A stretch of DNA of 64,000 nucleotides from Pontibacter lucknowensis (lineage in GTDB: Bacteria; Bacteroidota; Bacteroidia; Cytophagales; Hymenobacteraceae): positions 248,001 to 312,000 of the forward strand of contig NZ_FTNM01000006.1 of assembly GCF_900156415.1 (NCBI RefSeq), written 5' to 3'. Below are positions 42,057 to 61,160 of the stretch, in pieces; the stretch's first letter is position 1; every line of letters begins with the position of its first letter. The position numbers and the translations under genes are program-made. Under the pieces are notes generated by a model, which did no database searches, was not told the DNA's origin, and saw nothing but the letters and a program-made list of their open reading frames with translations.

Positions 42057-43496
42057 ATGGCATTAGCGGGCATGAGGGGTAAGGTACTATCTGGTATAAA
42101 GTGGAACACGATCAGTGTGGTTGCCACCAAAAGTACTGACTTTCTGGTAATGCTGATCCTGGCCAGGCTGCTGGTTCCGGAGGCTTATGGTATCGTGGGT
42201 ATGGCCATGCTGGTGGTGGGCATTCTGGAAGTGGTTTCGGACATGGGTCTTTACAATGCGCTTATACAAAAAAAAGAAGACGAACTGACCGAGGTTCGAT
42301 ACTCAAGTGCGCTGTGGTTTCTGCTTGTCGTTTCGCTTCTGCTTGTGCTCTGCTTCTTTCTGTTCATATCACCGGCGGGAGCCGCCTTTTATAACGAACC
42401 CCGTTTAGTACCTATTCTGAACGCACTGAGCATATACCTGTTCTTCAATATCTCGTCGATCATCCCGCGGGTGATCCTCACCCGGAAGCTGAACTTCAAG
42501 TCTCTTGTGACCATCACCTTCCTGGGCACTGCTATCAGTTCAGTAGCTGCTGTTGTCATGGCTTTGCTGGGGTTTGGCGTATGGAGTCTGGTTACAAAAT
42601 ACATAGCCGGATCAGGCGTGATCCTGGTCTCCTACTGGGTGAAAGTTGGCTGGTCTCCGAAGTTTGTGTTTCGCAAAGATGTATTGCTGGACATGGCCGG
42701 GTATAGCGTTTACACACAGCTCAACAACGTACTACACTTCCTCCGCAAGAACCTGGACTACCTGATTATTGGCAAGCTGGTCAGCTCACATTTGCTCGGT
42801 ATCTATACCCTGGCATTCATGTTGAGCCTAACGCTGAAGTCACAGCTTTACTCCATCTTCAACAAAGTGTTCTTCCCAGTGTACAGCAAGCTGCAGGACG
42901 ATCCGGAGAAGATCAAAATGTACTACCTGCAAACCATGCGGATGACGGCGATCATTACGTTTCCGATCTCAGTCCTCTTCATCGGACTGGCAGAGGAGAT
43001 CGTATTGTTCTTCTTCGGTGCCAAATGGCTGGAGGCGGCTTCCCCACTTCGCATACTATCCGTAGCCGCCATGATTTTTGCCATCTCCGGCACACCTGCC
43101 GAGGTGCTCAAAGGGATTGGAAAGCCGTCTGTGAGTTTTTACCTGAACACAATCAACACCTTTGTGATCGCATTACCGCTTATCTATTTCGGACAGAAAT
43201 ACTTTGGGATAGATGGTGTGGCATACGCCGTGTGTATCCATTATACCACCTCTCGCATCGCTTTCCATTATTTCATGAAAAAGTACATTCACATTACTGA
43301 CCTGGAGGTAATGTATGCGCTAAAAGACCCAGCACTGGCTGCACTTGTGATGCTTGTCATCATCTACCTGATCACACTGGTGGGCATGGCTGTATTAGTG
43401 GAACTGCTCGTTGCGGGTATTATAGGCGGTCTGGTTTATCTAATGTTCTTTTTAGACGATTTAAAACAAGGTATAAAGCTGATTAAGAAGTACTAA
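42057..43496 (+). CDS. Oligosaccharide flippase (Wzx-type), first copy
   Basis: 479 residues, 12-14 hydrophobic segments. N-terminus GIKWNTISVVATKSTDFLVMLILARLLVPEAYGIVGMA is the classical polysaccharide-synthesis/MOP superfamily start, and PISVLFIGLAEEIVLFFFGAKWLEAASPLRIL is the matching second-half helix. It translocates undecaprenyl-linked repeat units across the inner membrane. The gene starts three bases after the kinase-fusion stop. A second flippase lies at 58442. Confidence 0.93.
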   Translation: MALAGMRGKVLSGIKWNTISVVATKSTDFLVMLILARLLVPEAYGIVGMAMLVVGILEVVSDMGLYNALIQKKEDELTEVRYSSALWFLLVVSLLLVLCFFLFISPAGAAFYNEPRLVPILNALSIYLFFNISSIIPRVILTRKLNFKSLVTITFLGTAISSVAAVVMALLGFGVWSLVTKYIAGSGVILVSYWVKVGWSPKFVFRKDVLLDMAGYSVYTQLNNVLHFLRKNLDYLIIGKLVSSHLLGIYTLAFMLSLTLKSQLYSIFNKVFFPVYSKLQDDPEKIKMYYLQTMRMTAIITFPISVLFIGLAEEIVLFFFGAKWLEAASPLRILSVAAMIFAISGTPAEVLKGIGKPSVSFYLNTINTFVIALPLIYFGQKYFGIDGVAYAVCIHYTTSRIAFHYFMKKYIHITDLEVMYALKDPALAALVMLVIIYLITLVGMAVLVELLVAGIIGGLVYLMFFLDDLKQGIKLIKKY

Positions 43497-43527: not shown

Positions 43528-44154
43528 ATGGTAAAAAAATACATAAGAAGTGCTTTAAACAAAATCAGGTATGGAGCCAATGCACCTGCATTCGCTGAGC
43601 TGATTTTTGTAGACCCCATGCAGGTTAACCATTACTCCTTCGCCTGGAAACAGAAAGACTCGGGCCGTGTAATCGGGGGAGACTGGGACCGGGAGGAGAA
43701 CATGACTGAGATAAGTTCACGCTTCAAGTATAATGCCTGCATTGAACGATGGAAATTAAACAAAAGCTGGGAAGACACCGGCATCTATGAGTTCATGCTA
43801 GATTTCATACTGCAGCGTAACAAGCCGGTTGACAAGTGTAGCACATTGGATGAGATCCTGACCAGGTATAAGCGACTGGATCAACTCTTTGAACATGTAA
43901 AATCAACCGGTAAACTGAAAACACAGCGGGAACTGAATCCTCGCAGCTATAATGAAGAGGGCGGAATTTTTATTCATATAGGCCGGCAAAACCAAGTGAT
44001 ATTTGGCGGCGGTGGGATACACCGGTTAGCCATTGCCAAGGTACTGCAGTTAAGCAGCATACCTGCCCAATTAGGCGTAATACATCCTGAGGCGCTCTCC
44101 ACCTGGAAAGTGTATAAGCAAATTCCAGCCTCGCACTTAACCCTTACCAAATGA
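43528..44154 (+). CDS. ParB/Srx-fold-like protein in polysaccharide locus
   Basis: 208 residues. The N-terminus (KIRYGANAPAFAELIFVDP, then RVIGGDWD) and the C-terminal block IFGGGGIHRLAIAKVLQLSSIPAQLGVIHPEAL resemble ParB/sulfiredoxin-fold proteins, whose DGxHRLxAA motif binds nucleotide. Here it reads GGGGIHRLAIA, keeping the His-Arg. This is not a chromosome-partitioning ParB: no HTH is present and there is no ParA. Its stop overlaps the start of the APH-like gene by four bases, so the two are translationally coupled. Function unknown. Confidence 0.7.
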   Translation: MVKKYIRSALNKIRYGANAPAFAELIFVDPMQVNHYSFAWKQKDSGRVIGGDWDREENMTEISSRFKYNACIERWKLNKSWEDTGIYEFMLDFILQRNKPVDKCSTLDEILTRYKRLDQLFEHVKSTGKLKTQRELNPRSYNEEGGIFIHIGRQNQVIFGGGGIHRLAIAKVLQLSSIPAQLGVIHPEALSTWKVYKQIPASHLTLTK

Positions 44155-45074
44155 CAAACTTTAAAAAACAATACGAGGAAGTAAAAGACTCCTTGGATTG
44201 GGGATTCTACTCACTATCATACATCCAGCGGACCTGCCAGAACTGGAGTGTATTCCTGACGAGTTTTCCTGATCATAAACATCTACTTATGCCATTCTCT
44301 TTAGATTCAATTTCCCGGATTTTAAGATGCTACTCCTACATATTCCACTGGAGAGATACCACATACAAACTCTTCACGCCAATGGGGGGAGCTATAAAGA
44401 ACGCTGAACTATGCGGTAATCAAAAAGCACTGCAAACAAAGTTCTGGTCAGACACTGTCATACAGGTGAATCCTTTTGTGCTATGCCTGGCTATGGTGAA
44501 GGGCACACCTGTACCTGAATCCAGGATGGAGCAGGCGGAGCAGTTCATGGCAGCCAAACTGGAAGAGGCGTTGAACCACGAGTGGCAACAGGCTCACATG
44601 ACTTATAATCTGATGAAGTTGCAGAAGCTAGGGCAACAGGGTCTTGACTTACGGCTGATTGAGGTTTGCCACAATCTGTTGCGTCACTTAAAACTACCCG
44701 TTACAAGTGCCCATGGAGACTTGCACATCGAAAACATGATACTGATTGACGAAGAGATCAGAATAATCGACTGGTGCATGTATAACCGGAGCGGTAGCTT
44801 TATCACCGACTACATACACTTTTACAATTTTGCTGAAGCCGTAAAACACAACGAAAGCTGGACGGTAGCTATTCAAAAAGACAGCGACTACCTCCGCAGA
44901 CTGGCTAGCCACATGAGCACAGAGCCAGGGCTTCTTAGTATAGTCTACACCCTCAACAGAATAGCCGGAGAAGCCAGCCAGTTTCCAAGAACAGATTTAG
45001 TCCCGGCTAGCCAGATAGACAAGTACAACGCTGTGTTAACTCACCTTACCACCTCTATCAAGCAGAATGTTTAG
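44151..45074 (+). CDS. APH-like phosphotransferase
   Basis: 307 residues. The catalytic loop SAHGDLHIENMILID (about 182-196, with HxDxxxxN) and the metal-binding IIDWCMYN (DFG equivalent) mark an aminoglycoside-phosphotransferase/choline-kinase fold. The N-terminal lobe is divergent, and I do not see the usual glycine-rich loop or an obvious ATP lysine. Kinase substrates could be a sugar, lipid or choline-like headgroup. Start overlaps the ParB-like stop by four bases, and the GT2 gene start overlaps its own stop by eight. Confidence 0.8.
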   Translation: MTNFKKQYEEVKDSLDWGFYSLSYIQRTCQNWSVFLTSFPDHKHLLMPFSLDSISRILRCYSYIFHWRDTTYKLFTPMGGAIKNAELCGNQKALQTKFWSDTVIQVNPFVLCLAMVKGTPVPESRMEQAEQFMAAKLEEALNHEWQQAHMTYNLMKLQKLGQQGLDLRLIEVCHNLLRHLKLPVTSAHGDLHIENMILIDEEIRIIDWCMYNRSGSFITDYIHFYNFAEAVKHNESWTVAIQKDSDYLRRLASHMSTEPGLLSIVYTLNRIAGEASQFPRTDLVPASQIDKYNAVLTHLTTSIKQNV

Positions 45075-46013: not shown

Positions 46014-47285
46014 ATGATTCTGATTGCTCTGGGAATACTGCTTATACTTCTTTTTTTAGTCAATCAGAAGCTATTCCCTATTGGTTTGGTTCTATTCTTT
46101 CTGCTGTTTGATATGTTCGACGGCTTCTACAAAGATGATCAGATCTTTGCGGCGATACGCTATATTATCCCGCTTTCGCTCATGCTTGTGTACCTGTTTG
46201 CACATGGGGGCCTTCGCAAATCCGACAGTATCTTTCTGGTGCTTATTACCTACCTGGGTTTACTGATGATCTATATCCCGGGGGACATCATTCTATCGGC
46301 CAAAACTACGCTGGCTATCCTAATAGCCCTGCTGATGATCCCCATTGGGCGGGAGATAGCAGAGAATAGAAACTTTTTGCAGGAATTTGAAAAATATAAC
46401 CGCTACCTGCTTATCCTGATCCCGCTGTACATTATTTACGCGAATATTTTCAATGTTGGGCGCTCATATGCTGAGTCCTTTACAACAGGCTTCCTGAGTA
46501 CTTCCCGTATGTACATTGCCCCCATTCTGATCTTTCTGGGTGTCCATTATATTTTCACAAATAAAAACAGAGGGGCCATGATCAAGCTCTTCGATATCGG
46601 CTTGATTCTGTTCAATATAGCGCTTTTGATTGTGATCACCCGGCGCACGTCGCTTGTGATGACTGTCGGGGCGCTGTTTGTCTACATGCTGTTGAACCGG
46701 CAGTTGATCTTCAAAATGGTGATACTGGTATTTTGCCTGGTTGCCGCCCTTATTTTCAGTTACCCGCTTTATGAGGCCAAGCTTGCGGCGCAACTCGAGA
46801 AGCGCGAGAGGATACAGGATCTCGAAACATACGAGGAAGAGGGCCGATACCTCGAGACCCTGTTCATCATTGACTACCATGATAAGCGTGAAGATCCGCT
46901 GGAACTTATGTTCGGTGTCAAACTGTGGGACACATTCAGCTTTGGAATAAAATATTTCGGCCGAGACCGTCCCATCCACAGTGACATTAACATGATCTTC
47001 TACAGCACGGGATTCTTTGGCCTCTTTCTGTTTACGCTGTTCTTCGTGCACTACTTTCTGCTCGGAAACGGCAAGATCACACCTGAAAACAGGAAAGCAT
47101 ACTATCCCATTCTGGCCATGTTTGTCATGGTGCTAATACCTGGGCGCTTTATCGGCACCTTTACCTATGCCCCGCTTCTGATGCTGCTGCTTTCAGCCAT
47201 CAAGTATTACCGGCCAGTGGAAGAAACAGAAACCGAAAAAGAAGAAACAGTTCAAGAGGAAAAACTGCTGGAGATGAACGCCTGA
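46014..47285 (+). CDS. O-antigen polymerase-like (Wzy-type) membrane protein
   Basis: 423 residues, 10-12 membrane segments with a large loop (residues about 255-315, LEKRERIQDLETYEEEGRY...). VITRRTSLVMTVGALF (about 207-222) resembles the Arg-bearing loop of Wzy/WaaL-type polymerases. It would join repeat units on the periplasmic side. The C-terminus is acidic (EETETEKEETVQEE). It is the only polymerase-like gene in the locus, although two flippases are present. Confidence 0.85.
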   Translation: MILIALGILLILLFLVNQKLFPIGLVLFFLLFDMFDGFYKDDQIFAAIRYIIPLSLMLVYLFAHGGLRKSDSIFLVLITYLGLLMIYIPGDIILSAKTTLAILIALLMIPIGREIAENRNFLQEFEKYNRYLLILIPLYIIYANIFNVGRSYAESFTTGFLSTSRMYIAPILIFLGVHYIFTNKNRGAMIKLFDIGLILFNIALLIVITRRTSLVMTVGALFVYMLLNRQLIFKMVILVFCLVAALIFSYPLYEAKLAAQLEKRERIQDLETYEEEGRYLETLFIIDYHDKREDPLELMFGVKLWDTFSFGIKYFGRDRPIHSDINMIFYSTGFFGLFLFTLFFVHYFLLGNGKITPENRKAYYPILAMFVMVLIPGRFIGTFTYAPLLMLLLSAIKYYRPVEETETEKEETVQEEKLLEMNA

Positions 47286-47384: not shown

Positions 47385-48440
47385 ATGAAGGTACTTTTTG
47401 TGTGCAGCGGCAATTCTAAAAATTTTGAAGTAGCGCCATTTATAAAAGCGCAGGGTGAGTCATTGCAAAAAGCAGGTATAGAGGTAGCATACTTCCCAAT
47501 CAAGGGCAAAGGACTGCGCGGCTACCTGCAGGCAGGCGGTCAACTGCGTCAACACCTGAAGTATCATCGCTATGACCTTATTCATGCTCATTTTTCGCTT
47601 TCAGGATGGTCTGCCGTGCTGGGCGCAGGCAGCACACCGGTTATACTCTCTCTCATGGGAGATGACGCACAGGGAGATTATATTGGCGTAAACAAAATAA
47701 GGTTCAGCAGCAGGTTCTTTATGCTGTCATCTATCCTTATTCAGCCTTTTGTAAGAGCCATCATTTCAAAGGCCCCCAACCTGGAGAAGTATGTGTACCA
47801 AAAACACAAATCCTACATTGTCCCGAATGGGATAGATACCAAAACCTTCATTCCGAATCCGGCAGGCTATCGGGAAGAACTGGGGCTGGACCCGGCGAAA
47901 AAGCTGGTTCTGTTTCTGGGAAGTCAGGAAAGAGTCGGTAAAAACTACCCGCTGGCGCAGCAGGCAGTTGCGCACCTCAACCTGCCAGATGTGCAACTCA
48001 TCAACCCCTTCCCGATCCCTCATGATGCCATACCTAAATACATGAATTCGGCAGACGTGCTGGTGGTGCCCTCGTTTATGGAAGGCTCCCCGAATGTGAT
48101 CAAAGAGGCGATGGCCTGCAACTGCCCTATTGTAGCCACGGATGTGGGCGACATCAGATGGGTGATGGGCGACACGGAAGGCTGCTACCTGGCTTCGTTC
48201 CAGGTAGAGGACTTCGCCGAAAAAATTCACCGCGCATTGGAATTTGCCCAAACGAAAAGAAGAACCACAGGCCGTCAAAGGATCGAGCGGCTGGGCCTTG
48301 ACGCCGACACCATCGCTCAGAAGGTGATCAGTATTTACAGAAAGCATGTGCCCATACCCGCGGCTACAGTGCATGAAGCAGCTGCTCAGCTTACCAGAAA
48401 CGTAACCGCTAACACAGTATCACCTACCCGGTCTATCTGA
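47385..48440 (+). CDS. Family 4 glycosyltransferase
   Basis: 351 residues, GT-B fold. The N-terminal domain begins MKVLFVCSGNSKNFE and ends near MGDDAQGDYIG. The C-terminal domain carries SADVLVVPSFMEGSPNVIKEAMACNCPIVATDVGDI, the Glu-x7-Glu motif of retaining GT4 enzymes. Adds a sugar to the lipid-linked repeat. A 99-base gap precedes it, longer than elsewhere in the locus. Confidence 0.93.
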   Translation: MKVLFVCSGNSKNFEVAPFIKAQGESLQKAGIEVAYFPIKGKGLRGYLQAGGQLRQHLKYHRYDLIHAHFSLSGWSAVLGAGSTPVILSLMGDDAQGDYIGVNKIRFSSRFFMLSSILIQPFVRAIISKAPNLEKYVYQKHKSYIVPNGIDTKTFIPNPAGYREELGLDPAKKLVLFLGSQERVGKNYPLAQQAVAHLNLPDVQLINPFPIPHDAIPKYMNSADVLVVPSFMEGSPNVIKEAMACNCPIVATDVGDIRWVMGDTEGCYLASFQVEDFAEKIHRALEFAQTKRRTTGRQRIERLGLDADTIAQKVISIYRKHVPIPAATVHEAAAQLTRNVTANTVSPTRSI

Positions 48441-48457: not shown

Positions 48458-49546
48458 ATGAAGATACTTATCGACATCAATCACCCTGCCCATGTGCATT
48501 ACTTCAGAAATTTCACGAGTCTGATGGAAGCGAAAGGCCATGCTGTTCTCTTCGTTTCGCGGGACAAGGAGATGGCTCAGAGACTGCTTAATCTTTACCA
48601 GATCCCATACATCAACAGAGGCAAAGGCAAAGACGGCAAGATCGGCAAGTTTCTATACCTGCTGTATGCTGATTACAAACTGCTGCAGATCGCATCCTCT
48701 TTCAAGCCCGATCTCTTTCTGAACTTCCTGCACCCTTACCCTTCTCAGGTAGCTGCCTTACTGGGCAAGCCATCGCTTGTGTTCAGTGACACAGAGCACG
48801 CTACCCTGCATCATAAACTGACAGTGCCTTTTGCTACGAAAGTATTTACACCTGCCTGCTACCGCACAGATCTGGGCGACAAACAGGTGCGCTTCAGGGG
48901 GTACATGGAGCTGGCTTATCTTCACCCGCGTTACTTCATGCCAAACCCCGAAATACTGGAGCTGCTGCAGGTAGCAGCAGGAGAAAAGTATGTGATTGTG
49001 CGCTTTGTTTCCTGGGCAGCCGCCCATGACTTTGACCACACAGGTATGTCGCTCGATAACAAGCGAAAAGCCGTGCAGGCACTCTCGAAGCTGGCACGGG
49101 TCTTTATCACTTCCGAAGGAGAGCTACCAGCAGACCTGGAGCAGTATCGCATCTCCATCCCCTTCGACAAGATGCACGACGCCATCTACTACAGCAGTCT
49201 GCTATTCGGGGAGAGCGCTACCATGGCTTCCGAGGCGGCAGTTCTGGGTACGCCTTCCATTTTCATGGATAATGACGGCAGGGGCTATACAGATGAAGAG
49301 GAAAGCAGGTATGGCATTGTCTTCAACTTCAGCGAAAGTGAGGACGACCAGCAGCGTGCCATTCACCAGGCCGTTCACATATTGGAAGACGAAAGCAGCC
49401 AGCATAAATTCAAAAAAGTGCGGGACCGGATCGTGTCAGAATGCATTGATACCACGGAGTTCATGGTAGAGCAGGTACTCCGCTATAACCTGAGCCAAGA
49501 AACTGTGCCCGCTGAGCACTATACAAATGTGTCTCTTACCGAATAG
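48458..49546 (+). CDS. DUF354 glycosyltransferase-like protein
   Basis: 362 residues. KILIDINHPAHVHYFRNFTSLMEAKGHAVLFVSRDKE is the hallmark DUF354 start. LVFSDTEHATLHHKL and the C-terminal GESATMASEAAVLGTPSIFMDN resemble the nucleotide-sugar site of UDP-GlcNAc 2-epimerase/MurG-like GT-B enzymes. Likely a glycosyltransferase for an amino sugar. It is the last gene before the four acyltransferase paralogues. Confidence 0.88.
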   Translation: MKILIDINHPAHVHYFRNFTSLMEAKGHAVLFVSRDKEMAQRLLNLYQIPYINRGKGKDGKIGKFLYLLYADYKLLQIASSFKPDLFLNFLHPYPSQVAALLGKPSLVFSDTEHATLHHKLTVPFATKVFTPACYRTDLGDKQVRFRGYMELAYLHPRYFMPNPEILELLQVAAGEKYVIVRFVSWAAAHDFDHTGMSLDNKRKAVQALSKLARVFITSEGELPADLEQYRISIPFDKMHDAIYYSSLLFGESATMASEAAVLGTPSIFMDNDGRGYTDEEESRYGIVFNFSESEDDQQRAIHQAVHILEDESSQHKFKKVRDRIVSECIDTTEFMVEQVLRYNLSQETVPAEHYTNVSLTE

Positions 49547-49591: not shown

Positions 49592-51256
49592 ATGATTGAA
49601 GAAATTGCCTACGAGAATGTAAAAATCGGACAAAGCGAAAAGAACTTAGAGCTATTGGCTGGTGAGGAAGTAATGCACTTACTGGAAGATGCCACTTATC
49701 TGACTGAATGGGACTCGCTCTATCATTCCTGCCATTGGGCCACTGTATTTCAAAGTCCTGATTTTGTCACTACCTGGTACAGGCTTTACCAGCATGCTTA
49801 TCAACCAATCCTTATAAGAGAGTACACAAAAGGTGTGCTTAGTGGCTTACTTACACTGGCACTGCCTCTACACAGATTAAACGGCAGAACATTTATTGTT
49901 GGCGCAGGCCATTATGAAGCCGATTACCATACCTGGCTGGCCTCCGACAGTAATGGCAATTCATTTATCAGCTCCGCCCTGAAAGTGCTGATGCGGAAAT
50001 TCCCAACCACAGACCTGATGCTGCGGCACCTGCCGCCAAACACACCCACTGACTGGGCAAAGTCAGAGCCGCGCTGGCAAAGCTCCTGCATACTCTATCC
50101 ACTGACCCGCCCGCTGGTAGTCATGTCGGACTTTACCGTATCCAGGAGGGACAGAAAAAGGGTAAGTCGTATGAATCAGATCGGTGAGTTTATACACCTG
50201 ACTGATGAAGCGGCATTCCGTGATGCGCTTGATCAACTAGCGATCTATTATGACTTCAGACAGGGAGCGATGTACAACAAAAACCCATTCCGAACCGACC
50301 CGGTCAACAAAGAGTTTTTGCTCGCTTTGTTCAGGCGCAAACTGCTGCATGTCACAGTGCTGAAGGCAGGTGAAGAAATGGTCGCTTCTGTAGCGGCTGT
50401 AATAAGCAAGAACAAGGCTAACTTAGGCGGCATTAATTTTCATTCACCGCTTTTTGCTAGTTACTCCCCCGGTTATGTGCACTTCCTAATGCTTTCGCAA
50501 CAGTTTGTGCACGAAGGCATAAGCTCTTTTGACCTGACGCCCGGTGGTGACCCTTACAAAGACCGGCTAGCCACACAGCATGATCAGGTACATATACTGG
50601 TTACTACCAACTCCAGACTGTACTTCTTTAAACGCCAGTTCAGAAAACTGCTCTATCAGCGCATGACAGAGATGGGGATCAGAACAATGTCAGTAGAGCT
50701 TAGTCTAAAAAGACACCTGTATTTAGTAAAGGAGCGTGGTCTTGCACAAGAAATAGTTCGTGGTCTGAGAAAGCTATGGGCCAACGATCAGGATAAAATC
50801 TATCATGCCACACTTGAGCTGAAAAAATTCAGCTGTGATTTCTCTATTAATAAAAATAGCCTCAGCAATCTGCTTGATTACCAGATGCAGGGGAGCATGT
50901 GTACCCGTTGGGAGTTTCTGGAGAATGCGATGCGAAGACTGGAGCAGGGCGCACAGTGCTTTACTATCTCTGACAGAGGCACGCTACTTTACTGTGCCTG
51001 GTACACCACGCCAGCTACAGACACTGCTACAGAAGCAGCTATAGCTGCTGGTCGAGAAGCCATTTACCTGCAGGATGTTTATGTGCATCCTTTTGGAGTG
51101 GCACAACTCAAGGAGTTTTTGGCAGCTGTAATTTCAGCTATCACCCCTAATCTATCAAGTGCGCAGGTATACCTGTCGGTACCTGATCAAGATAAGCTGC
51201 TTTCGAAGGCTATGAAGCGTGCAGGCCTTCAGAAAACCAGGGAACCATTGCCTTAA
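49592..51256 (+). CDS. GNAT/FemAB-like acyltransferase, paralogue 1
   Basis: 554 residues in two parts. The first (to about residue 360) is an Acetyltransf_6/BioF2-type domain: an opening HLLEDATYLTEWDSLYHSCHWATVFQ, the core YDFRQGAMYNKNPFRTDP and LLHVTVLKAGEEMVASV, and the motif SFDLTPGGDPYKDRLATQHDQV. The second (about 410-554) is a GNAT-like region: NLLDYQMQGSMCTRWEFLENAMRRLE and YLQDVYVHPFGVAQLKEF. FemAB-like enzymes transfer amino acids or acyl groups to amines. Here they probably modify amino sugars of the repeat unit. Three close relatives follow in tandem. Confidence 0.85.
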   Translation: MIEEIAYENVKIGQSEKNLELLAGEEVMHLLEDATYLTEWDSLYHSCHWATVFQSPDFVTTWYRLYQHAYQPILIREYTKGVLSGLLTLALPLHRLNGRTFIVGAGHYEADYHTWLASDSNGNSFISSALKVLMRKFPTTDLMLRHLPPNTPTDWAKSEPRWQSSCILYPLTRPLVVMSDFTVSRRDRKRVSRMNQIGEFIHLTDEAAFRDALDQLAIYYDFRQGAMYNKNPFRTDPVNKEFLLALFRRKLLHVTVLKAGEEMVASVAAVISKNKANLGGINFHSPLFASYSPGYVHFLMLSQQFVHEGISSFDLTPGGDPYKDRLATQHDQVHILVTTNSRLYFFKRQFRKLLYQRMTEMGIRTMSVELSLKRHLYLVKERGLAQEIVRGLRKLWANDQDKIYHATLELKKFSCDFSINKNSLSNLLDYQMQGSMCTRWEFLENAMRRLEQGAQCFTISDRGTLLYCAWYTTPATDTATEAAIAAGREAIYLQDVYVHPFGVAQLKEFLAAVISAITPNLSSAQVYLSVPDQDKLLSKAMKRAGLQKTREPLP

Positions 51257-51330
51257 TCTTCAGTACTGCTCGGCACCCCTTGTCTGAGCTAAAGTAGCTC
51301 TACTTGTTACACACCTTATAAGACAACAAG

Positions 51331-53028
51331 ATGATGGAAAATGTAATTAGCGCAATCGATATGCCCCCACTTATTGAGCAACCTAAACAAGTAGATTTGC
51401 TGATAGGTGATCAGGTATATCGACTTCTGGACGATGCCACATTTAAAGAGTCCTGGCACAACCTGTACTCGGCCTGCGCATGGGCTACTGCTTTTCAAAG
51501 TTGGGAGTTTATCGTGTCATGGTATCATGTGTTCAGAAGCGACTACATACCTGTGCTGCTCAAGTCAGAGCAAGAAGGCCGGCTGACTGGTTTGCTGGCG
51601 ATGGCTATTCCTGCCTCAGACAGATCTAATGCCGAGGGCAGGCAAGGTAGCGTTAGAATTGTGGGAGCAGGCGAATATGAGGCCGAATATCATTGTTGGA
51701 TCGCTGAGCCGGATACTAATGATTTCTTCATAACGAATGCGCTTACTAAACTTCTCCAGCATTACCCGAAAGCCAGAATCATGTTTCGGTTTATGCCACC
51801 CGGGACACCCCTGGCCTGGCACGACCAGAACCCCAAATGGCAAAGTCTTAGTGTGAAACAGGCTTTCAGACGTCCATTACTAGAGATAAAAAGCCCCGAA
51901 GCCGAGAAAGCATTTCGTATCAACAATCAGTATAAGACCAAACTCAATCGTCTGAAGAAGCTGGGAACTGTGAAGTTTGAGCGGGTGACAGATCCCGGAG
52001 TGTTCGAAGCCGTGCTACCTGAACTTGCTCTGCAATACGACTTCAGGCAGGGAGGGCTTTTCAACAAAAATCAGTTCAGAGACAAGCCGCTGAAAGCCGA
52101 GTTTATGAAGATGCTGTTTAAGAACGGTTTGCTTCATGTCACGCTGCTCCGCGTGAATGATGATATTATCGGTTCCATGGTAGCGGTAGCAGACAGAGGT
52201 TGGGTATACCTGCAAGGTATTAACACCCATTCCCCGTTTTATGCCAGACACTCACCTGGTATTCTGCATTTCCTCAATCTAGGTCAGTTGCTGGCGCATG
52301 AAGGAGTTGACGTATTTGATTTAACCCCTGGTGGTGACACTTATAAGGAGCGCCTTGCTACTAGTCATGACCAAGTATATGGACTGCTTATAACAGGCAG
52401 TAAAGGCTTCCGCTTCAAAAGGCTGATCAAGAAAGAGCTGCAAGACTACCTCGTTAGAACAGGAAGACGCCCTATGACGGTAGAGCTTCAGATCAAGAAA
52501 CAGGTATACCTATTGAAAAACCATCTTAGAAGAGCCAAGAAGTCTGGCTACGTAAAGGTGATCAGACAGCTATTAAGCAGCGACAAGAAAGGCTCTCCTG
52601 AGCAATTATATGTTAAGGACCTAGAGGCAAACAGTCGCTTTTCAGCGATGCATATTCAAAAGAATAACTTAAACGATATACTCGATTTCGAGAAGGACGA
52701 GACCCTTACACGCTGGGAGTTTATGGAAAACACTATGAGGCTGTTTGAAACAGGGCATCATGCCTATACCTGGGCAAAAGAAGGACGCCTGATGGCCTGC
52801 GCCTGGTTTGCCTATACTGATTTCACAAATCAACAGCAGCCCCAACTGTCTAATATACCTGCCTTGATGCACCTATACTGCCACCCTGAGGCGAACGACA
52901 AATTTGAACAGTTTCTGGAGCATGTAACCTCTATCATCACCCTGGAGATCAACGAACCCAAGCTGTACGCGGTACATAAGCCGAACAGTCAGGCACTGAT
53001 CAGGTCAGGATTTCAAGTAGTCACATAA
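51331..53028 (+). CDS. GNAT/FemAB-like acyltransferase, paralogue 2
   Basis: 565 residues, homologous over its whole length to its neighbours. It keeps LLDDATFKESWHNLYSACAWATAFQ, YDFRQGGLFNKNQFRDKP, GINTHSPFYARHSPGILHFL and FDLTPGGDTYKERLATSHDQVY. The C-terminal domain carries DFEKDETLTRWEFMENTMRLFETG and HLYCHPEANDKFEQFLEHV. Together with paralogue 1 it retains all segments that look essential, so both are probably active. 74 bases separate it from paralogue 1. Confidence 0.85.
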   Translation: MMENVISAIDMPPLIEQPKQVDLLIGDQVYRLLDDATFKESWHNLYSACAWATAFQSWEFIVSWYHVFRSDYIPVLLKSEQEGRLTGLLAMAIPASDRSNAEGRQGSVRIVGAGEYEAEYHCWIAEPDTNDFFITNALTKLLQHYPKARIMFRFMPPGTPLAWHDQNPKWQSLSVKQAFRRPLLEIKSPEAEKAFRINNQYKTKLNRLKKLGTVKFERVTDPGVFEAVLPELALQYDFRQGGLFNKNQFRDKPLKAEFMKMLFKNGLLHVTLLRVNDDIIGSMVAVADRGWVYLQGINTHSPFYARHSPGILHFLNLGQLLAHEGVDVFDLTPGGDTYKERLATSHDQVYGLLITGSKGFRFKRLIKKELQDYLVRTGRRPMTVELQIKKQVYLLKNHLRRAKKSGYVKVIRQLLSSDKKGSPEQLYVKDLEANSRFSAMHIQKNNLNDILDFEKDETLTRWEFMENTMRLFETGHHAYTWAKEGRLMACAWFAYTDFTNQQQPQLSNIPALMHLYCHPEANDKFEQFLEHVTSIITLEINEPKLYAVHKPNSQALIRSGFQVVT

Positions 53029-53077
53029 CCACTTTCCCAAACGTCACATAAACTCTTAACCCTCAAATCGTCTTAGT

Positions 53078-54772
53078 ATGAAAGGCACTTGTACCGACAA
53101 AGGAAGTAATGTTCTGTATCCTGAAATTGAGGATAAAATCGAAATAAGCGTGGGTGAAGACGCCCTGAAAATACTATCAGATGAAAAATTTCAGGCAGAA
53201 TGGGAGGCACTTTACCAATCATGCTACTGGGCTACCGTGTTTCAAGGAACTACCTATACCAATACCTGGTATAAACTATACAAGAAACAGTACATTCCTA
53301 TCCTGATTACTTCTTACAAAGGGAACAAACTCACAGGTATACTGAACCTGAGTATGAGCCTTAAGAAACTCGAAATAACCGGCACAGGCGCGTCAGACGC
53401 TTACTATCATACCTGGTTAGCCGAGGAGTATAATAAAGAGTCATTCATAAAATTAGCGCTTCATAAAGTAAGGGAACATTTTCCGGGATATAACATCCGC
53501 CTGTTCCAGCTCCCACAGCATACGCCAATCAAGTGGCTTGAAACCGATAAGAAGTGGCTGAATCTGGCTGTGCTAAAAACCTATGACCGCCCCTTGGTGG
53601 ACCTAACACACCCTGAATTGTCAAAACTCTACACCAAAAAGCAGTTTAAAGAATGTCGTAACCGGCTGAAGCGTTTAGGCGAAGTCACATTCGAGCATAT
53701 CACCTGCATCGATCAACTATCTGACATTTTTGACGAAATGATGGATCAGTTCGACTTCAGAAAAGGGGCTACCCTCAATACACTGCCGTTCAGATCAGAT
53801 CCTCAGAAAAAAGAATTCCTGATGGAGCTGTTCCGGCTGGACATGCTCCATGTCGCAGTGCTGAAAATGAATGGCATAATCGTAGCTTCGCTTATTGCTA
53901 CAATTGGCAAAGACAAGTGGGTCCATGGCGTCGGGATCAATACCCATGCCCCTACTTATGCAGCCTACTCTCCCGGTTTCATTAGTTTTATTATGCTAGC
54001 GCAGCAACTGGCAAATAAGCAGTACCACATGCTTGACCTGTCTACCGGAGACCAGGAATACAAAAAGCGTATGACCAACACACAGGACCAAGTATATGCC
54101 CTTGTAATCCTGAGCAGGAATAAATCGACTTTCAAAATACCGAACCCTCTCAAAGAGCAAGTCATTGGGAGATTGTCAGAAGCCGGCATTGACTATATAG
54201 CTTTCAGAGCGAAACTCAGAGCTAATAATAAGATGCTAAAAGCCAAGTGGCATCTCCTTAAGCAGCAAGGTATTACGAGATGCTTAGTCAACTCCCTGAA
54301 ATTCACCATATCTAGGGAAAAAGAACAAATATATAAAATAAACACTAAAAACAGCATAACCATTCTCAAAAACACGTATGCATGTATAAGTCAAAACAGC
54401 TTAAAAGACCTACTTCGTTTTTCCGAAGGTCAATCTTTAAAAACTCGTTGGGAATTTCTGATTGAAGCCATGTATAGGCTTGAGATAGGTGAGCAGGCCT
54501 ATACCTACTCCGAGGACAATGTACTAAAAGCCTGTGTCTGGATGAGCTGTTACTCTAAGAAACAAAACATATATGCTGCCAAGCTTGATTATCCAACAGA
54601 AGGGGCTGTGCTTCACGGCCTTTATTTCCACTCCGATTACAACAATAAGCTGCCCCAGTTTATAGAAGCTGTAGCTGCAGAAATTGAAAAAAACCAGCCA
54701 GGCAAACAAATATACCTGATCACTGGCCCATCAGTAGCTGCATTTTGTTTGGCAAGGCAAAGCGCTTGTTAA
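53078..54772 (+). CDS. GNAT/FemAB-like acyltransferase, divergent paralogue 3
   Basis: 564 residues, the most divergent of the four. The core is FDFRKGATLNTLPFRSDPQKKEFL and the motif reads MLDLSTGDQEYKKRMTNTQDQVY, so the PGGD loop of the others is replaced. Bases are more AT-rich and lysine/isoleucine-rich than in the neighbours. The C-terminal domain is kept (DLLRFSEGQSLKTRWEFLIEAM, YRLEIGEQAYTYSED, HGLYFHSDYNNKLPQFIEAV). It may use a different acyl donor or have lost activity. Confidence 0.82.
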   Translation: MKGTCTDKGSNVLYPEIEDKIEISVGEDALKILSDEKFQAEWEALYQSCYWATVFQGTTYTNTWYKLYKKQYIPILITSYKGNKLTGILNLSMSLKKLEITGTGASDAYYHTWLAEEYNKESFIKLALHKVREHFPGYNIRLFQLPQHTPIKWLETDKKWLNLAVLKTYDRPLVDLTHPELSKLYTKKQFKECRNRLKRLGEVTFEHITCIDQLSDIFDEMMDQFDFRKGATLNTLPFRSDPQKKEFLMELFRLDMLHVAVLKMNGIIVASLIATIGKDKWVHGVGINTHAPTYAAYSPGFISFIMLAQQLANKQYHMLDLSTGDQEYKKRMTNTQDQVYALVILSRNKSTFKIPNPLKEQVIGRLSEAGIDYIAFRAKLRANNKMLKAKWHLLKQQGITRCLVNSLKFTISREKEQIYKINTKNSITILKNTYACISQNSLKDLLRFSEGQSLKTRWEFLIEAMYRLEIGEQAYTYSEDNVLKACVWMSCYSKKQNIYAAKLDYPTEGAVLHGLYFHSDYNNKLPQFIEAVAAEIEKNQPGKQIYLITGPSVAAFCLARQSAC

Positions 54773-54796
54773 TAATTTACTTACCCCGGATCGCCT

Positions 54797-56479
54797 ATGA
54801 ATACACTGTTACAGAAAGCTACGTTCCAACAAGAAGATGTCGTAAAAATACTGACAGGAAAAAAAGCTTTGGCATTGCTCGCTGAGCAAAGTTTCCAGTT
54901 GCAGTGGGATACACTCTATACCTCCTGCCCCTGGTCGACTGTCTTTCAAAGCAGAGGCTTCGTTTATACCTGGTATCAATCTTATCATACAACTTATTCA
55001 CCTATTCTGGCTGTCGCATATTGCGGGGAAAAGCTCACCGGACTGTTAACACTGGCACAAGATGACAGTGGCCGGCTTGTTGGTGCCGGAGCTAATCAGG
55101 CAGAATATCAGGTATGGCTTACAAGGGAGCAAACGGATTCTTATTTTATAAAAAAGACACTGAACGATCTGCTGGAGCAGTTTCCTCAGTCTGAGATCAG
55201 TCTGAAATTTGTGCCAGCCAACACACCCTTGCAGTGGCTCGAAACTGACCTTGAATTGCAAAAAGTGTACTTCCGCAGAGAAGTGAAGCAGCCATTGCTC
55301 AGCCTGAATAAGGAAAACCTGTCACAGGAACTTCGAAAGAAGAATAGAAGGGAAAAACTCAATCGTCTGAAACGACAGGGGGAGCTATCTTTTATGAAAG
55401 TCACTGATGCGCAGAAGTTTTCCTCCGTACTGGATGAACTTGCCATACAAAGTGATTTCAGGAAAGGTGCCATGTATAATAAGTGTGCTTTTCAGGAGGA
55501 CGGCTATCGCAAAGAGTTTCTGAAAAAGCTGTTCTCGGAGGGTCTGCTTCACGTCACCCTGCTTAGAGTAGATAATACCATCATTGCATCTAATGTCGGG
55601 GTGACCGGGCAAAACTGGGTGCACCTGCAGGGCATTAACACCCACTCTCCAATGCAGGCGAAACACTCGCCAGGCATTCTCCACTTTCTGATGCTTGGCG
55701 TGATGCTGGCAGAGGAAGGTATTGCAGTTTTTGACCTGACCCCAGGTAACGATCCATACAAAGAAAGCCTTGCCACAGACTTTACGCATGCAACCGAATT
55801 GGTTTTCGGAAACAAGGCCGTCGTTATGAACAGGAAGCTGAAATACAACCTGACTCAGTACCTGAAGGATACACTTCCCAAACTAGGTATAGCGGGCCGT
55901 CAGATCAAGCAGATGAGCCATGAGACAGCTATAATGAAAGAAAAATTCAAGCTTATCAAAAGGCAGAGTCTTTCAACGCTGCTCAGGAAATCTATCCGGA
56001 GTATAAGTAAATCCAATGATCTGAGTATATACTCCGTGCAGCCTGTTCAGAAAGAGGTTCAGGAAGTACCTGTTAATAAAAATGAATTGCAGGACTTACT
56101 CTGCTATACACCTGCAGAAAGCCTTACCTCAAAGTGGGAGTTCCTGATCGATGCGATGCGCAGGCTCGAGTCCGGTCAGCATGTGTATACCTGGCAGAAG
56201 AACGGGCACTTGTTAGGCTATGCCTGGTTAAGCGAACCCAAAGCCTCCAAACCGACCACCTTTTTTCAGTTGGAGTTACCCGAACAGGCAATTGTGCTGC
56301 ACAGTTTTTACTGTCCCTCTTTGGATCATGCAAAAACAGCCGCCTTTATCCGGGCTATAGTCGCTCATTCGAACGTATCAAATGACCTGCCACTTTACGC
56401 CGTTGCAAAATCAACTGATAAAGCTGTATGCAGAGTATTAGAATTACTGTACCCTTCTACCCCCGCTTCAAGCAATTAA
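54797..56479 (+). CDS. GNAT/FemAB-like acyltransferase, paralogue 4
   Basis: 560 residues. Core QSDFRKGAMYNKCAFQEDGYRKEFL and GINTHSPMQAKHSPGILHFLMLG. The motif is FDLTPGNDPYKESLATDFTHAT, with the DQV segment of paralogues 1 to 3 replaced. The second domain is complete (DLLCYTPAESLTSKWEFLIDAMRRLESG, YCPSLDHAKTAAFIRAIV). It follows paralogue 3 after 24 bases and precedes AsnB after 35, so all are probably one transcript. Confidence 0.85.
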   Translation: MNTLLQKATFQQEDVVKILTGKKALALLAEQSFQLQWDTLYTSCPWSTVFQSRGFVYTWYQSYHTTYSPILAVAYCGEKLTGLLTLAQDDSGRLVGAGANQAEYQVWLTREQTDSYFIKKTLNDLLEQFPQSEISLKFVPANTPLQWLETDLELQKVYFRREVKQPLLSLNKENLSQELRKKNRREKLNRLKRQGELSFMKVTDAQKFSSVLDELAIQSDFRKGAMYNKCAFQEDGYRKEFLKKLFSEGLLHVTLLRVDNTIIASNVGVTGQNWVHLQGINTHSPMQAKHSPGILHFLMLGVMLAEEGIAVFDLTPGNDPYKESLATDFTHATELVFGNKAVVMNRKLKYNLTQYLKDTLPKLGIAGRQIKQMSHETAIMKEKFKLIKRQSLSTLLRKSIRSISKSNDLSIYSVQPVQKEVQEVPVNKNELQDLLCYTPAESLTSKWEFLIDAMRRLESGQHVYTWQKNGHLLGYAWLSEPKASKPTTFFQLELPEQAIVLHSFYCPSLDHAKTAAFIRAIVAHSNVSNDLPLYAVAKSTDKAVCRVLELLYPSTPASSN

Positions 56480-56514: not shown

Positions 56515-58416
56515 ATGTGTGGAATAGCTGGTATTATCAACTTTAATCAGGAAACTCCCAAAGAGTCTGCATTGCGAGAAATGATGCGACAAATGAAACA
56601 CAGAGGTCCTGACGACAATGGCGTATTTATAGAAGATGAAATAGGACTTGGATTTGTCCGGCTCAGTATAATTGACCTCTCGCCTGACGGCCACCAGCCC
56701 ATGGTGTCTGCCGACGGTCGTTACGTGCTCGAGTTCAATGGCGAGATATTCAACTACGTGGAGTTGCGCGAAGAACTCCAGCAAGAGGGTATTGAATTTA
56801 AAACGAAAACTGACACAGAGGTTTTATTGAACGCTTACATTCATTGGGGCGAGGACTGCATGAACCACTTTAACGGCATGTGGGCTTTCGCGATTTATGA
56901 CCGCTTGACCAAAACTGTTTTCGCATCCCGAGACAGGTATGGCATCAAACCTTTTTACTATATCCACACAACCAACTATTTTGCTTTCTGCTCTGAGATT
57001 CCGCCACTACTCAGCTTACTTGACGGAAAGCCCAAGCCTAACTACCAAAGCATATTTGATTACCTGGCCTTCAACAGGACTGACCAGTCAGAGGCTACTT
57101 TCTTTGAGGAGGTTAGAAAGCTGCAGCACGGCATGAAGCTGACCGTACGCGGCAGAAACGTAAAGACAAGCCGCTGGTATGATCTAAGGGAGAGAGTAGC
57201 GAAAGCCGAAAAATTCAAGAACCCGGAAGAGTATAAAGAATTGTTCACTTCGGCGGTTGGCTTACGACTCAGAAGTGATGTACCGGTAGGTGTCTGTCTA
57301 AGTGGCGGCCTTGACTCTTCCAGCATTACCTCCGTACTACTCAACAGCTATCAAAAAAAAGATCTCAACACGTTCTCGGCCATCTATCAAAATGGCCAGA
57401 CGGGGGATGAAAAGCAGTTTATACATGAGTACAAACCGCTGCTAAAGAACATGCATTACATCTATCCCAATGCCGAAACGCTTGAAAACGATCTGATGCA
57501 ATTCATAAAAACACATGCCGAGCCGATCCCATCCACCTCACCTTATGCGCAATACAAGGTGATGGAGCTGGCCAAGGATAACGTGGTGGTGACACTTGAT
57601 GGGCAGGGAGCCGATGAAGAACTGGCCGGCTATCATTACTTTTTTGGCTTTTACTTTAAAGACCTGCTCCGCTCCGGCCGTATCGGCAAGCTCTTCAGTG
57701 AGATGTACCATTACCTGAAGAACCACCGCAGCCTGTACGGTGTCAAATCATTTGCCTATTTTCTGCTTCCGGAAGGTATGCGCACGAAGTTAAGGGTAGG
57801 AGAAAAAGGGTATTTGCAGAACGCTTTTGTAGAAAGATATAGCAAGTCCAACGGTATAGCCGGCAAGCTGTATGGTTCCACCTCGCTGAAAGACGCCCTG
57901 TTGGACCACTTTGAAAATAAGCTGGAGCATTTGCTCAAATGGGAAGACCTGAACTCCATGCATTTCTCTCTTGAGGCGCGGGTACCTTTTCTGGACTACC
58001 GTCTGGTGGAGAAAACACTGGCCAGTTCAGAAGACTGGGCTATACGCCACGGCATCACCAAGTTCATACTCCGGGAGTCTATGAAAGGCGTGCTTCCCGA
58101 AAAAATCAGGATGCGGCAGGATAAGATTGGCTTCGGCACGCCACAGGACGAATGGTTCAGAGAGCCTGCCTGGCAGAACATGGTAGAAGGCATCCTGAGC
58201 AGCGATTCTTTTAGAAGGCGCAACCTGATCGACCCGGAGATTGCCATGCGAAAGTATAAGGAGCACCTCTCAGGACAAACTAATATTGCGAAGGAGATCT
58301 GGAAGTGGGTGCACCTCGAGCTATGGTTCAGAACATTCATAGACCTGGACCTGCAGGAGGAAGTTCCTCAACCAGCAGATGCGCTGAATGAGCGCATTAC
58401 ACCATTGCCTGCCTAG
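56515..58416 (+). CDS. Glutamine-hydrolysing asparagine synthase-type amidotransferase
   Basis: 633 residues, AsnB architecture. The N-terminal Ntn glutaminase begins MCGIAGI, so Cys2 is the nucleophile after Met removal. The PP-loop synthetase domain has SGGLDSSSI (about 263-271) and LDGQGADEELAGY (about 360-372). In polysaccharide loci such enzymes can amidate the carboxylate of a uronic acid rather than make asparagine. That is my inference here, from position between acyltransferases and the second flippase. Confidence 0.93.
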   Translation: MCGIAGIINFNQETPKESALREMMRQMKHRGPDDNGVFIEDEIGLGFVRLSIIDLSPDGHQPMVSADGRYVLEFNGEIFNYVELREELQQEGIEFKTKTDTEVLLNAYIHWGEDCMNHFNGMWAFAIYDRLTKTVFASRDRYGIKPFYYIHTTNYFAFCSEIPPLLSLLDGKPKPNYQSIFDYLAFNRTDQSEATFFEEVRKLQHGMKLTVRGRNVKTSRWYDLRERVAKAEKFKNPEEYKELFTSAVGLRLRSDVPVGVCLSGGLDSSSITSVLLNSYQKKDLNTFSAIYQNGQTGDEKQFIHEYKPLLKNMHYIYPNAETLENDLMQFIKTHAEPIPSTSPYAQYKVMELAKDNVVVTLDGQGADEELAGYHYFFGFYFKDLLRSGRIGKLFSEMYHYLKNHRSLYGVKSFAYFLLPEGMRTKLRVGEKGYLQNAFVERYSKSNGIAGKLYGSTSLKDALLDHFENKLEHLLKWEDLNSMHFSLEARVPFLDYRLVEKTLASSEDWAIRHGITKFILRESMKGVLPEKIRMRQDKIGFGTPQDEWFREPAWQNMVEGILSSDSFRRRNLIDPEIAMRKYKEHLSGQTNIAKEIWKWVHLELWFRTFIDLDLQEEVPQPADALNERITPLPA

Positions 58417-58441
58417 CAGTAGGTATTACCCTATACCTTAT

Positions 58442-59977
58442 ATGGCTATCAATCAATTGAAAGCAGGCGCCTTGCTGTCTTATGCCTCTATCGGCATAAA
58501 CAATATAGTGGGCCTGCTCTTTACACCTTTCATGTTGCGGATGCTGGGGAAATCAGAGTTTGGACTTTACTCTCTTGTCGCCTCCGTAGTAGCATACCTT
58601 ACCGTGTTAGACCTGGGCCTGGGCAATGCAGTGGTTCGTTATACCGCCAAATACAGGGCACAAAACAGGCAACAGGAACAGTACTCCCTATTTGGTATGT
58701 TTTTGATGCTTTACTGTAGTATCAGTCTGCTCGTCATTCTGGCTGGTACCTTGCTGTATCATAATGTGGAAGTCCTGTTTGGCAACGCACTAACTGCGGC
58801 AGAACTCGAGAAAGCCCGCATAATGGTAGTGCTGTTGATCTTCAACCTGGCCGCTACGTTTCCACTCAGCATCTTTGGTTCGATCATAGTCGCCTATGAA
58901 AACTATGTATTTCAGAAGCTAGTTAATATTGTACGGGCTCTGATCACACCCTGCCTGATGATACCTTTGCTCCTGCTGGGATACAAAGCCATTGGTATTG
59001 TGTTGGTTATCACACTGTTGAATATCATCAGCTTACTCGTAAACTGCTGGTACTGTTTTACTAAGCTCAAGATCAAGCTGCATTTCAGAAAGATGGAGTG
59101 GCAAGTGCTGAAGGGAATTTCCACTTACTCCTTCTTTATTTTCCTGGGGGTGATAGTGGACAAAATCTATTGGAGCACCGGTCAGTTTGTGCTTGGCGTG
59201 GTAGCAGGTACTGCTGTGGTGGCTGTGTACGCTATTGCCGTGCAGCTGCAGATGTACTATATGAGCCTCTCGACTGCCATATCAGGTGTATTTTTACCAA
59301 AAATCACCGCCATGGTCGCACGCAACACCTCTGACAGGGAAGTGTCTGATCTGTTTATCCGGACAGGCAGGATACAGTTTATCGTGATGGCATTTGTCCT
59401 GAGTGTTTTTATTCTGTTCGGGAAAACCTTTATCATACTGTGGGCTGGGCCTGACTACGCCGATGCTTACCTGATCGCCGTGCTGCTGATGATTCCGCTG
59501 ACGATTCCCTTGATACAGACCCTCGGCATTTCCATACTTCAGGCACGTAACCAGCACAAGTTCCGCTCGCTGGTTTATATTCTGGTGGCCACGGCAAGCC
59601 TGGCTATTAGCATTCCACTGGCCAAGGTATATGGAGGCATAGGCTGCGCCATCGGCACCTCATTCTCGCTTATTGTAGGCAATATCATCGTCATGAATAT
59701 TTACTATTATAAGCGGGTGAGAATTGACATACCCCGCTTTTGGAGAGAGATAGGCTCCATGTCACTTCCTGTTATAGTATTAATACCAGTAGGTGTACTC
59801 CTCAACTATCTATCCCCTGAGGTTACTTTCATTTCACTATTCATAAAAGTACTAATTTTCAGTATTCTATACCTCAACGCAATCTGGTGGAAAGGGCTTA
59901 ATAATTATGAAAGAGAGCTCTTTTGGGTACCTGCAAAGAAAGTAATTTCCAAAGTAAAACTTCACTACAATAACTAG
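58442..59977 (+). CDS. Oligosaccharide flippase (Wzx-type), second copy
   Basis: 511 residues from the ATG at 58442 (an ATG at 58388 lies inside the AsnB end and opens into no membrane helix). 12-14 hydrophobic segments; SYASIGINNIVGLLFTPFMLRMLGKSEFGLYSLVASV is a standard MOP-family start. It is clearly a different subfamily from the first flippase (42057). It might move a separate lipid-linked glycan, or the decorated unit. Confidence 0.92.
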   Translation: MAINQLKAGALLSYASIGINNIVGLLFTPFMLRMLGKSEFGLYSLVASVVAYLTVLDLGLGNAVVRYTAKYRAQNRQQEQYSLFGMFLMLYCSISLLVILAGTLLYHNVEVLFGNALTAAELEKARIMVVLLIFNLAATFPLSIFGSIIVAYENYVFQKLVNIVRALITPCLMIPLLLLGYKAIGIVLVITLLNIISLLVNCWYCFTKLKIKLHFRKMEWQVLKGISTYSFFIFLGVIVDKIYWSTGQFVLGVVAGTAVVAVYAIAVQLQMYYMSLSTAISGVFLPKITAMVARNTSDREVSDLFIRTGRIQFIVMAFVLSVFILFGKTFIILWAGPDYADAYLIAVLLMIPLTIPLIQTLGISILQARNQHKFRSLVYILVATASLAISIPLAKVYGGIGCAIGTSFSLIVGNIIVMNIYYYKRVRIDIPRFWREIGSMSLPVIVLIPVGVLLNYLSPEVTFISLFIKVLIFSILYLNAIWWKGLNNYERELFWVPAKKVISKVKLHYNN

Positions 59978-59984
59978 CCTGATT

Positions 59985-61160
59985 ATGAGCTCCCAAGTGA
60001 TTCTCAAACAGACATACCAATTAAATACACAACAAGCAGCTGCAAATAAAATCATATTTGACGGCTACTATGGACAACTGAACACAGGTGATGATGCATT
60101 CGTAGAAGTTAGCGCTTGGGGAGCTGAGACTTACTGGAATACGGCGAATAACTTTTTTCTGGCAAAGTCACTTCCACTGATTAAGCATGAAGCCAGCCAT
60201 TTTCAGAAGAAAATTTTTACCGGTCAACATGTCCTGGAGCAGCTATATCAGCTGATAAACACTAATGCGGTCATATCTTCCGGAGGATCAACATTTGAAA
60301 AGCCTCAGAAAATGCTACACATCCGCAATCTGTCTATTATTAAGAAAATACTAATCAAGAACTTTAAAATCGGTGCAATCGGGGTGTCACTAGGGCCTTA
60401 TAAGAACGCCTCAGATGAAAAATCTATCATTGAATACCTGAAAAGACTGGATTTCCTGGCGCTTAGGGATGAGCACTCTTATCAACTGGCTTTAAGCTAT
60501 CAACTCCCATACAAACCAGTCAATGCCTTTGATTTGGCAGCTTTACTTCCACGTATTTATGATCACTCCAAGCAGAGCCAGCGAGACTATTATCAGGAAA
60601 AGATCATTGGTGTTAGTGCATGTTTCTTTGAAAGGTACAGAGGTTATACAAACCTCTGTAACGAAGAGCGTAGGACAGGATACCTCAAGCAGCTTCTGCT
60701 AGAAGTATCCAAAATCACAAACGCAAAGCTCAGATTCTTCGAATTCAATGGGAACTCAACTGTGGGCGATCTGCAAATAACTGCTTCTATTATTGATTTC
60801 CTGAAGGAGAATAAGGTGAGCAATGTGGAACTTATACCTTATAATCCTAACATAAATCATATATACAATAAGGTTTTAGAGTGTAACCTAATGATATCGG
60901 TGAGGCTGCATGCATCTATGTTTGCCTGCTTTGGCAACGTTCCGTTTTTTCTACTGGAGTATCACAGAAAATGCAGCGACTTTTTGGAGAGTGTAGGATA
61001 TAAGGAGGCTTACAGAATCGGAGATGGTATGCAGGAAATTCAAAAAACAATCGGACAAATTATTTCAATTCTGGAAGACCCAAATAGGTATACACCTCCT
61101 ACTAAGCTGGAGAATTGCAAACAGAAAGCATTGATGAACTTCACATCTATTTCGCTATAA
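59985..61160 (+). CDS. Polysaccharide pyruvyltransferase-family protein
   Basis: 391 residues. The motifs GYYGQLNTGDDAF (about residues 28-40), SSGGSTFEKPQKM and SVRLHASMFACF (about 305-316, with the RxHA-type pair) define the PS_pyruv_trans family, which adds ketal-linked pyruvate from phosphoenolpyruvate to sugars such as mannose or galactose. The last codons and stop lie inside a perfect 26-base inverted repeat. Last gene of the plus-strand run. Confidence 0.9.
   Translation: MSSQVILKQTYQLNTQQAAANKIIFDGYYGQLNTGDDAFVEVSAWGAETYWNTANNFFLAKSLPLIKHEASHFQKKIFTGQHVLEQLYQLINTNAVISSGGSTFEKPQKMLHIRNLSIIKKILIKNFKIGAIGVSLGPYKNASDEKSIIEYLKRLDFLALRDEHSYQLALSYQLPYKPVNAFDLAALLPRIYDHSKQSQRDYYQEKIIGVSACFFERYRGYTNLCNEERRTGYLKQLLLEVSKITNAKLRFFEFNGNSTVGDLQITASIIDFLKENKVSNVELIPYNPNINHIYNKVLECNLMISVRLHASMFACFGNVPFFLLEYHRKCSDFLESVGYKEAYRIGDGMQEIQKTIGQIISILEDPNRYTPPTKLENCKQKALMNFTSISL

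Follow-up and report, generated by a model that had tools for sequence, protein, structure and literature searches.

Why should a bacterium keep four adjacent homologues of one acyltransferase-like gene in a polysaccharide locus? The question is raised by a 64,000-nucleotide stretch of Pontibacter lucknowensis DNA (contig NZ_FTNM01000006.1, positions 248,001 to 312,000; hereafter the window) from a genome of 4.47 Mb. The four genes, all intact, lie on the forward strand at 49592..51256 (copy 1, 554 aa, type A), 51331..53028 (copy 2, 565 aa, type A), 53078..54772 (copy 3, 564 aa, type B) and 54797..56479 (copy 4, 560 aa, type B), with intergenic gaps of 74, 49 and 24 bases. A preliminary description had noted four neighbouring homologues of 554-565 residues in one orientation, and the open reading frames and six pairwise alignments confirm it. 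In each of the six pairs the alignment spans almost the whole length of both proteins, covering 519-559 columns at 32-37% identity, and BLASTP against a database of just the four proteins gives E-values of 4e-99 to 2e-133, far past chance. The strings TRWEFL, TRWEFM, TRWEFL and SKWEFL were found in the C-terminal regions of copies 1 to 4, respectively, at the places first described.

Our tentative answer, held with slightly less than even confidence, is FemX-like transfer onto a polysaccharide precursor, with types A and B working as a unit and the copies diverged in specificity. This reading draws on the predicted fold, a conserved catalytic-type lysine, the co-occurrence of A and B, gene fusion and the polysaccharide context; from these we infer the donor, the acceptor, physical contact, the order of action and a cytosolic location.

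The Acetyltransf_6 family (PF13480) matches each of the four proteins once, within residues 181-340, at 49.6-55.6 bits against a curated cut-off of 22 bits (E 6e-13, 1.5e-14 and 3.9e-14 for copies 1, 3 and 4), as had been proposed. The predicted structure contains the two-GNAT FemX fold, a FemX-type tandem-GNAT unit whose second half corresponds to the Acetyltransf_6 domain. Copy 2 is laid out as a FemX-like unit (residues 19-366), a helical stretch (358-417) and a further domain (about 425-558); comparison of the fold with known structures covered residues 15-382 well. The secondary-structure order of GNAT domains is b-a-a-b-b-b-a-b-a, and DSSP gives this order for residues 425-558 of the model. 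Each window protein appears to contain one GNAT-type domain more than the two originally counted, three in all; the WEF region is GNAT-like, as then stated, and appears to be the third of them.

The distinctness of the C-terminal domain was borne out by the profile searches: no Pfam or NCBIfam family matched the C-terminal part of the window proteins, and none spanned the full protein. Among 55 family members, four NCBIfam families each match one or two (best E 0.0011), and PF00583 matches one (E 0.019). Twelve PF00583 proteins of the same genome, retained from 30 loci after a length filter, were compared with the C-terminal domain by hhalign and gave 57-61% (E about 1e-4), a test of low sensitivity in which the first two domains scored just 0.3% against the same 12 proteins. 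Control values for the C-terminal domain were at most 0.7% for 10 decoy families and at most 1.4% for the protein’s own first two domains. The glycine-rich loop is missing from the alignment of the third domain with these GNATs, and the domain looks degenerate. Sequence searches of the PDB gave no match with the full family profile, a single GNAT (E 0.37) with the C-terminal profile, and five unrelated matches, regarded as noise, with a mixed PF13480 profile. These direct searches did not reach FemX; the sequence link to FemX required an intermediate PF02388 protein.

When 20 Bacteroidota FemAB (PF02388) proteins were combined in a profile, the N-terminal unit matched it at 97.7% (E 2.4e-12, 273 columns), with a Tyr-Lys (YK) pair of the window family over Phe-Lys (FK). 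In the intermediate protein (L210), which is among these 20, FK aligns with FK of Staphylococcus aureus FemX (6snr) and FemA (1lrz), and also lies over chain residues 305-306 of FemX 4ii9, the index of which is one ahead of 1ne9. F304-K305 of FemXWv is reported as the essential catalytic pair (PMC4964394). Judged from these alignments, the YK pair should be the counterpart of F304-K305, with Tyr replacing Phe. It is encoded on the forward strand at 50555-50560 (Tyr322-Lys323, copy 1), 52342-52347 (Tyr338-Lys339, copy 2), 54059-54064 (Tyr328-Lys329, copy 3) and 55757-55762 (Tyr321-Lys322, copy 4). The lysine is identical in 93/93 family rows, and the tyrosine in all A rows and 98% of B rows. 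A DFR motif, an SPG segment and a DL(T/S)xG loop are kept in most rows of both types; DFRQG is mostly found in A (Q in 34/38) and DFRKG mostly in B (K in 51/55). PF02388 itself had no match in the genome of the window at E 0.001, though it is present in 66 of 296 Bacteroidota genomes, and none of the four window proteins matched it up to E 1. The view that the four paralogues are FemAB-like acyltransferases belonging to a polysaccharide locus is upheld by Pfam, the predicted fold and the PF02388 profile match.

The conserved core is kept in both A and B, so neither type looks like a pseudo-enzyme. Alternatively, either one type or the third domain could serve as a regulatory partner without catalysis, binding, for example, a second messenger or a lipid, like the C-terminus of HfsK, a Caulobacter holdfast protein. 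The degenerate appearance of the third domain, with its missing loop, would fit this, and HfsK requires its C-terminal extension to associate with the membrane, an extension that also has a part in c-di-GMP binding (PMC5362036). Retention of the YK pair and most other core residues by both types argues against it, and the HfsK extension is 25 residues long and has no demonstrated relation to the third domain. We consider this the most improbable of the explanations weighed here.

A 93-row tree without outgroup divides the family into A (38 rows, with copies 1 and 2) and B (55 rows, with copies 3 and 4) at 100% Shimodaira-Hasegawa-like approximate likelihood ratio support. The presence of two types rules out four equivalent paralogues, and the tree suggests two A and two B proteins in the window instead of four equal roles; the preliminary description had proposed that the four might act at four positions or with four donors. 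Copy 3 falls in a sub-group of 18 rows and copy 4 in one of 33 rows (support 91). Among 36 genomes with sequences, 31 have both types, five have only B and none has only A; in a shuffle of labels across genomes, which takes no account of relatedness, a mean of 23.5 had both and 31 was reached in 17 of 10,000 trials. The typing leaves out genome G714 and, in both L. luteola (G465) and L. arenae (G470), a single copy. Genomes with two typed copies (16, including G470, which holds a third copy) comprise 13 A+B and three B+B. By hand count, the 43 neighbouring family pairs divide into 26 A-B, 10 B-B and seven A-A, and of the 29 genomes in the tree that have both types, 27 carry a B from the copy 4 sub-group (exceptions G059 and G471).

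A and B are also joined in single genes. Three of nine carriers in the Niastella genus group have B and A fused in one open reading frame of 1131-1133 aa, with B first (L075:8198-11599; L082:8195-11590; L179, G715:C1:8668532-8671927). When a natural fusion was aligned in MAFFT trials, A seldom aligned to the C-terminal half and B seldom to the N-terminal half. Some unfused neighbours overlap, by 4-47 bases in L072, L076, L085 and L156 and by 143 bases in L066 of Pontibacter sp. HSC-36F09, lengths that depend on mechanical start codon calls. The co-occurrence of A and B and the B-A fusions give indirect support to the hetero-oligomer suggested in the preliminary description, whose observation is confirmed and whose interpretation is partly supported.

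The family has a narrow, patchy distribution in which arrays of two to six copies recur. Of 50 Pontibacter genomes (the window’s included), 24 have one to five copies and 26 have none; one match in this set is an 81-codon fragment. A scan of genome contigs (24 loci) extended the carriers to Niastella, Longitalea, Echinicola and Cyclobacterium. Full-length members were found in 2/395 genomes across the phylum (up to three candidates scored per genome), in 4/244 from the family of Niastella yeongjuensis (up to five per genome) and in 9/10 of its genus group, Longitalea included. The largest array has six copies (four A, two B) and a DegT-type aminotransferase gene in about 14 kb (G342:C1:313809-327401; L156, L178) of a genome from the same taxonomic order. 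Four genes in a row had been thought unusual; no description of the array or architecture was found among the best matches in the open-licence literature, but the array is recurrent and not unique. Orphan B copies occur outside polysaccharide clusters in five Pontibacter genomes (L097, L099, L101, L105, L115), in a conserved housekeeping neighbourhood of diadenylate cyclase, dihydropteroate synthase, shikimate kinase and PheS, and the copy 3 sub-group also contains orphan copies from this neighbourhood.

The nearest relatives, HSC-36F09 and HSC-14F20, each have four family genes in the order and surrounding cluster of the window. Recurrence in relatives and the divergence of the copies rule out a strain-specific array or a recent duplication. 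In eight comparisons of window copies with these relatives, dN was 0.14-0.21 and dS 1.4-2.7 (near saturation), and all four genes look to be under purifying selection. Orthologues by position are 67-79% identical, far closer than the window copies are among themselves (32-37%), so each copy appears to keep its own role. This also fits ordinary tandem duplication, in which independent enzymes with differing acceptors, and with no heteromer or obligate pairing, diversify the polysaccharide between strains. The range of zero to six copies among relatives and the existence of B-only genomes point the same way. Set against these are the lack of A without B in the 36 genomes, the predominance of A-B neighbours and the B-A fusions of three genomes, and we regard unpaired duplicates as a doubtful explanation.

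By Pfam, the forward strand of the window encodes a Wza-like export protein (36968-37756; Poly_export/SLBB), a Wzc-like co-polymerase/kinase (37773-40097; GNVR/AAA_31), a flippase-type protein (42057..43496; Polysacc_synt_3), a GT4-type glycosyltransferase (47385..48440) and, directly upstream of the array, a DUF354 protein that is a probable glycosyltransferase (48458..49546). A 423-aa hydrophobic protein at 46014..47285 (forward strand) has no Pfam family and is a candidate Wzy polymerase. Directly downstream of the array on the same strand is an asparagine-synthase-like amidotransferase (56515..58416; Pfam, and NCBIfam TIGR01536 over cut-off), which might act on the polymer by amidating a uronic acid or an acidic side chain. 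A second flippase-type protein (58388-59977; Polysacc_synt) and a polysaccharide pyruvyl transferase (59985..61160, forward strand) follow, both by Pfam, and the cluster also has a NusG-like factor and, on the opposite strand, a deacetylase and a polysaccharide lyase. Three other proteins in the cluster merit mention. In one at 40818-42053 (411 aa), an uncharacterised nucleotidyltransferase (NTP_transf_5) and a P-loop domain like that of thymidylate kinases are joined. Two have no Pfam or NCBIfam match: one at 44151-45074 (307 aa), with HGDLHIEN and IIDW motifs that we take to resemble aminoglycoside/choline kinases, and one at 43528-44154 (208 aa), the cluster of which is found in 5/48 loci, including the window.

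Recurring neighbours in the 48 loci are the deacetylase (27), GT4 (25), the window-lyase cluster (25), a priming sugar transferase (23), DUF354 (21), the DegT-type aminotransferase (19), the hydrophobic candidate polymerase (13) and the amidotransferase (11); each cluster was named after one or two of its members, several loci may share a genome, and flanks end at contig or fetch limits. The DegT-type gene is directly upstream of a family gene on the same strand in 19/19 cases (A in 15, B in four), and it overlaps the family gene by 4 bases in two Longitalea loci. The aminotransferase consensus retains an EDAAQA stretch and a lysine that precedes a GG segment, presumably the PLP residues. Because an aminotransferase is coupled to family enzymes, N-acylation of an amino sugar is suggested. 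Obligate DegT coupling was ruled out for the window, from which the aminotransferase of the 19 other loci is missing. Acyl-CoA-dependent N- or O-acyltransferases, adding acetyl, 3-hydroxybutyryl or similar groups to amino sugars of the polymer with no tRNA, are an alternative that we consider unlikely, though the strongest of those competing with FemX-like transfer.

In the FemX-like transfer that we favour, the four products would be acyltransferases of FemX fold, presumably cytosolic, in which two GNAT domains would jointly form a FemX-type active site and a third, degenerate GNAT-like domain would be appended. The working unit would probably be a type A and a type B protein, which either form a heteromer or modify one substrate in turn. 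The window array would then supply an A pair and a B pair of enzymes whose specificities have diverged, much as FemA and FemB act in sequence in Staphylococcus. A bolder version is quite unlikely: an obligate A:B heteromer of a triple-GNAT FemX-type family, whose tandem arrays would form a tRNA-dependent line building short peptide or aminoacyl side chains on the exopolysaccharide of Gram-negative Bacteroidota, as a counterpart of the staphylococcal FemX-FemA-FemB relay.

Several points weigh against FemX-like transfer by an A-B unit. The lysine equivalence depends on a chain of low-identity alignments, and the one with 4ii9 stops at this residue with low posterior values. PF13480 proteins of polysaccharide loci might use acyl-CoA; the genome of the window has no close DegT homologue (best match 26% identity); and some copies are orphans away from polysaccharide loci. 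Relatedness does not enter the label shuffle, the five B-only genomes indicate that B can act without A, and gene fusion equally fits sequential action without a stable heteromer. When seven PF13480-type outgroups were added to 65 of the 93 family rows, A was a clade (99) and B a grade; B is not claimed as a single clade because the root falls inside it, where long branches meet.

The FemX fold, PF13480 and FemAB-like proteins in polysaccharide biogenesis are known. FemX, FemA and FemB (PF02388) act on peptidoglycan, whereas the window family sits in a polysaccharide context and differs by its extra helical stretch, third GNAT-like domain, A/B pairing and B-A fusions. Shorter PF13480 proteins of other Bacteroidota (372-454 aa; seven picked from 18 listed loci) are without the C-terminal domain. 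PG and YK are invariant across these seven and the four window proteins, and all seven have Hxx(K/R)W where the window proteins have DFR[QK]G. TIGR03019, the FemAB family XrtA/PEP-CTERM-associated protein, is likewise FemAB-like and is named for an exopolysaccharide-associated system; it matched none of the four window proteins and one of 55 family members (E 0.007). A Myxococcus spore-coat precedent was looked for in the literature and was not among the matches listed. HfsK (PMC5362036) is also a tandem GNAT protein of exopolysaccharide biogenesis with FemX as its nearest solved homologue; it is encoded by a single gene, and is set beside the window family by description only.

The catalytic role of HfsK was hard to predict according to its authors (PMC5362036). 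A family with paired, sometimes fused sub-types and an extra domain is a handle on the groups transferred by FemAB-like proteins encoded in polysaccharide loci. Were aminoacyl-tRNA the donor, the charged tRNAs of translation would be linked to exopolysaccharide decoration in Bacteroidota.
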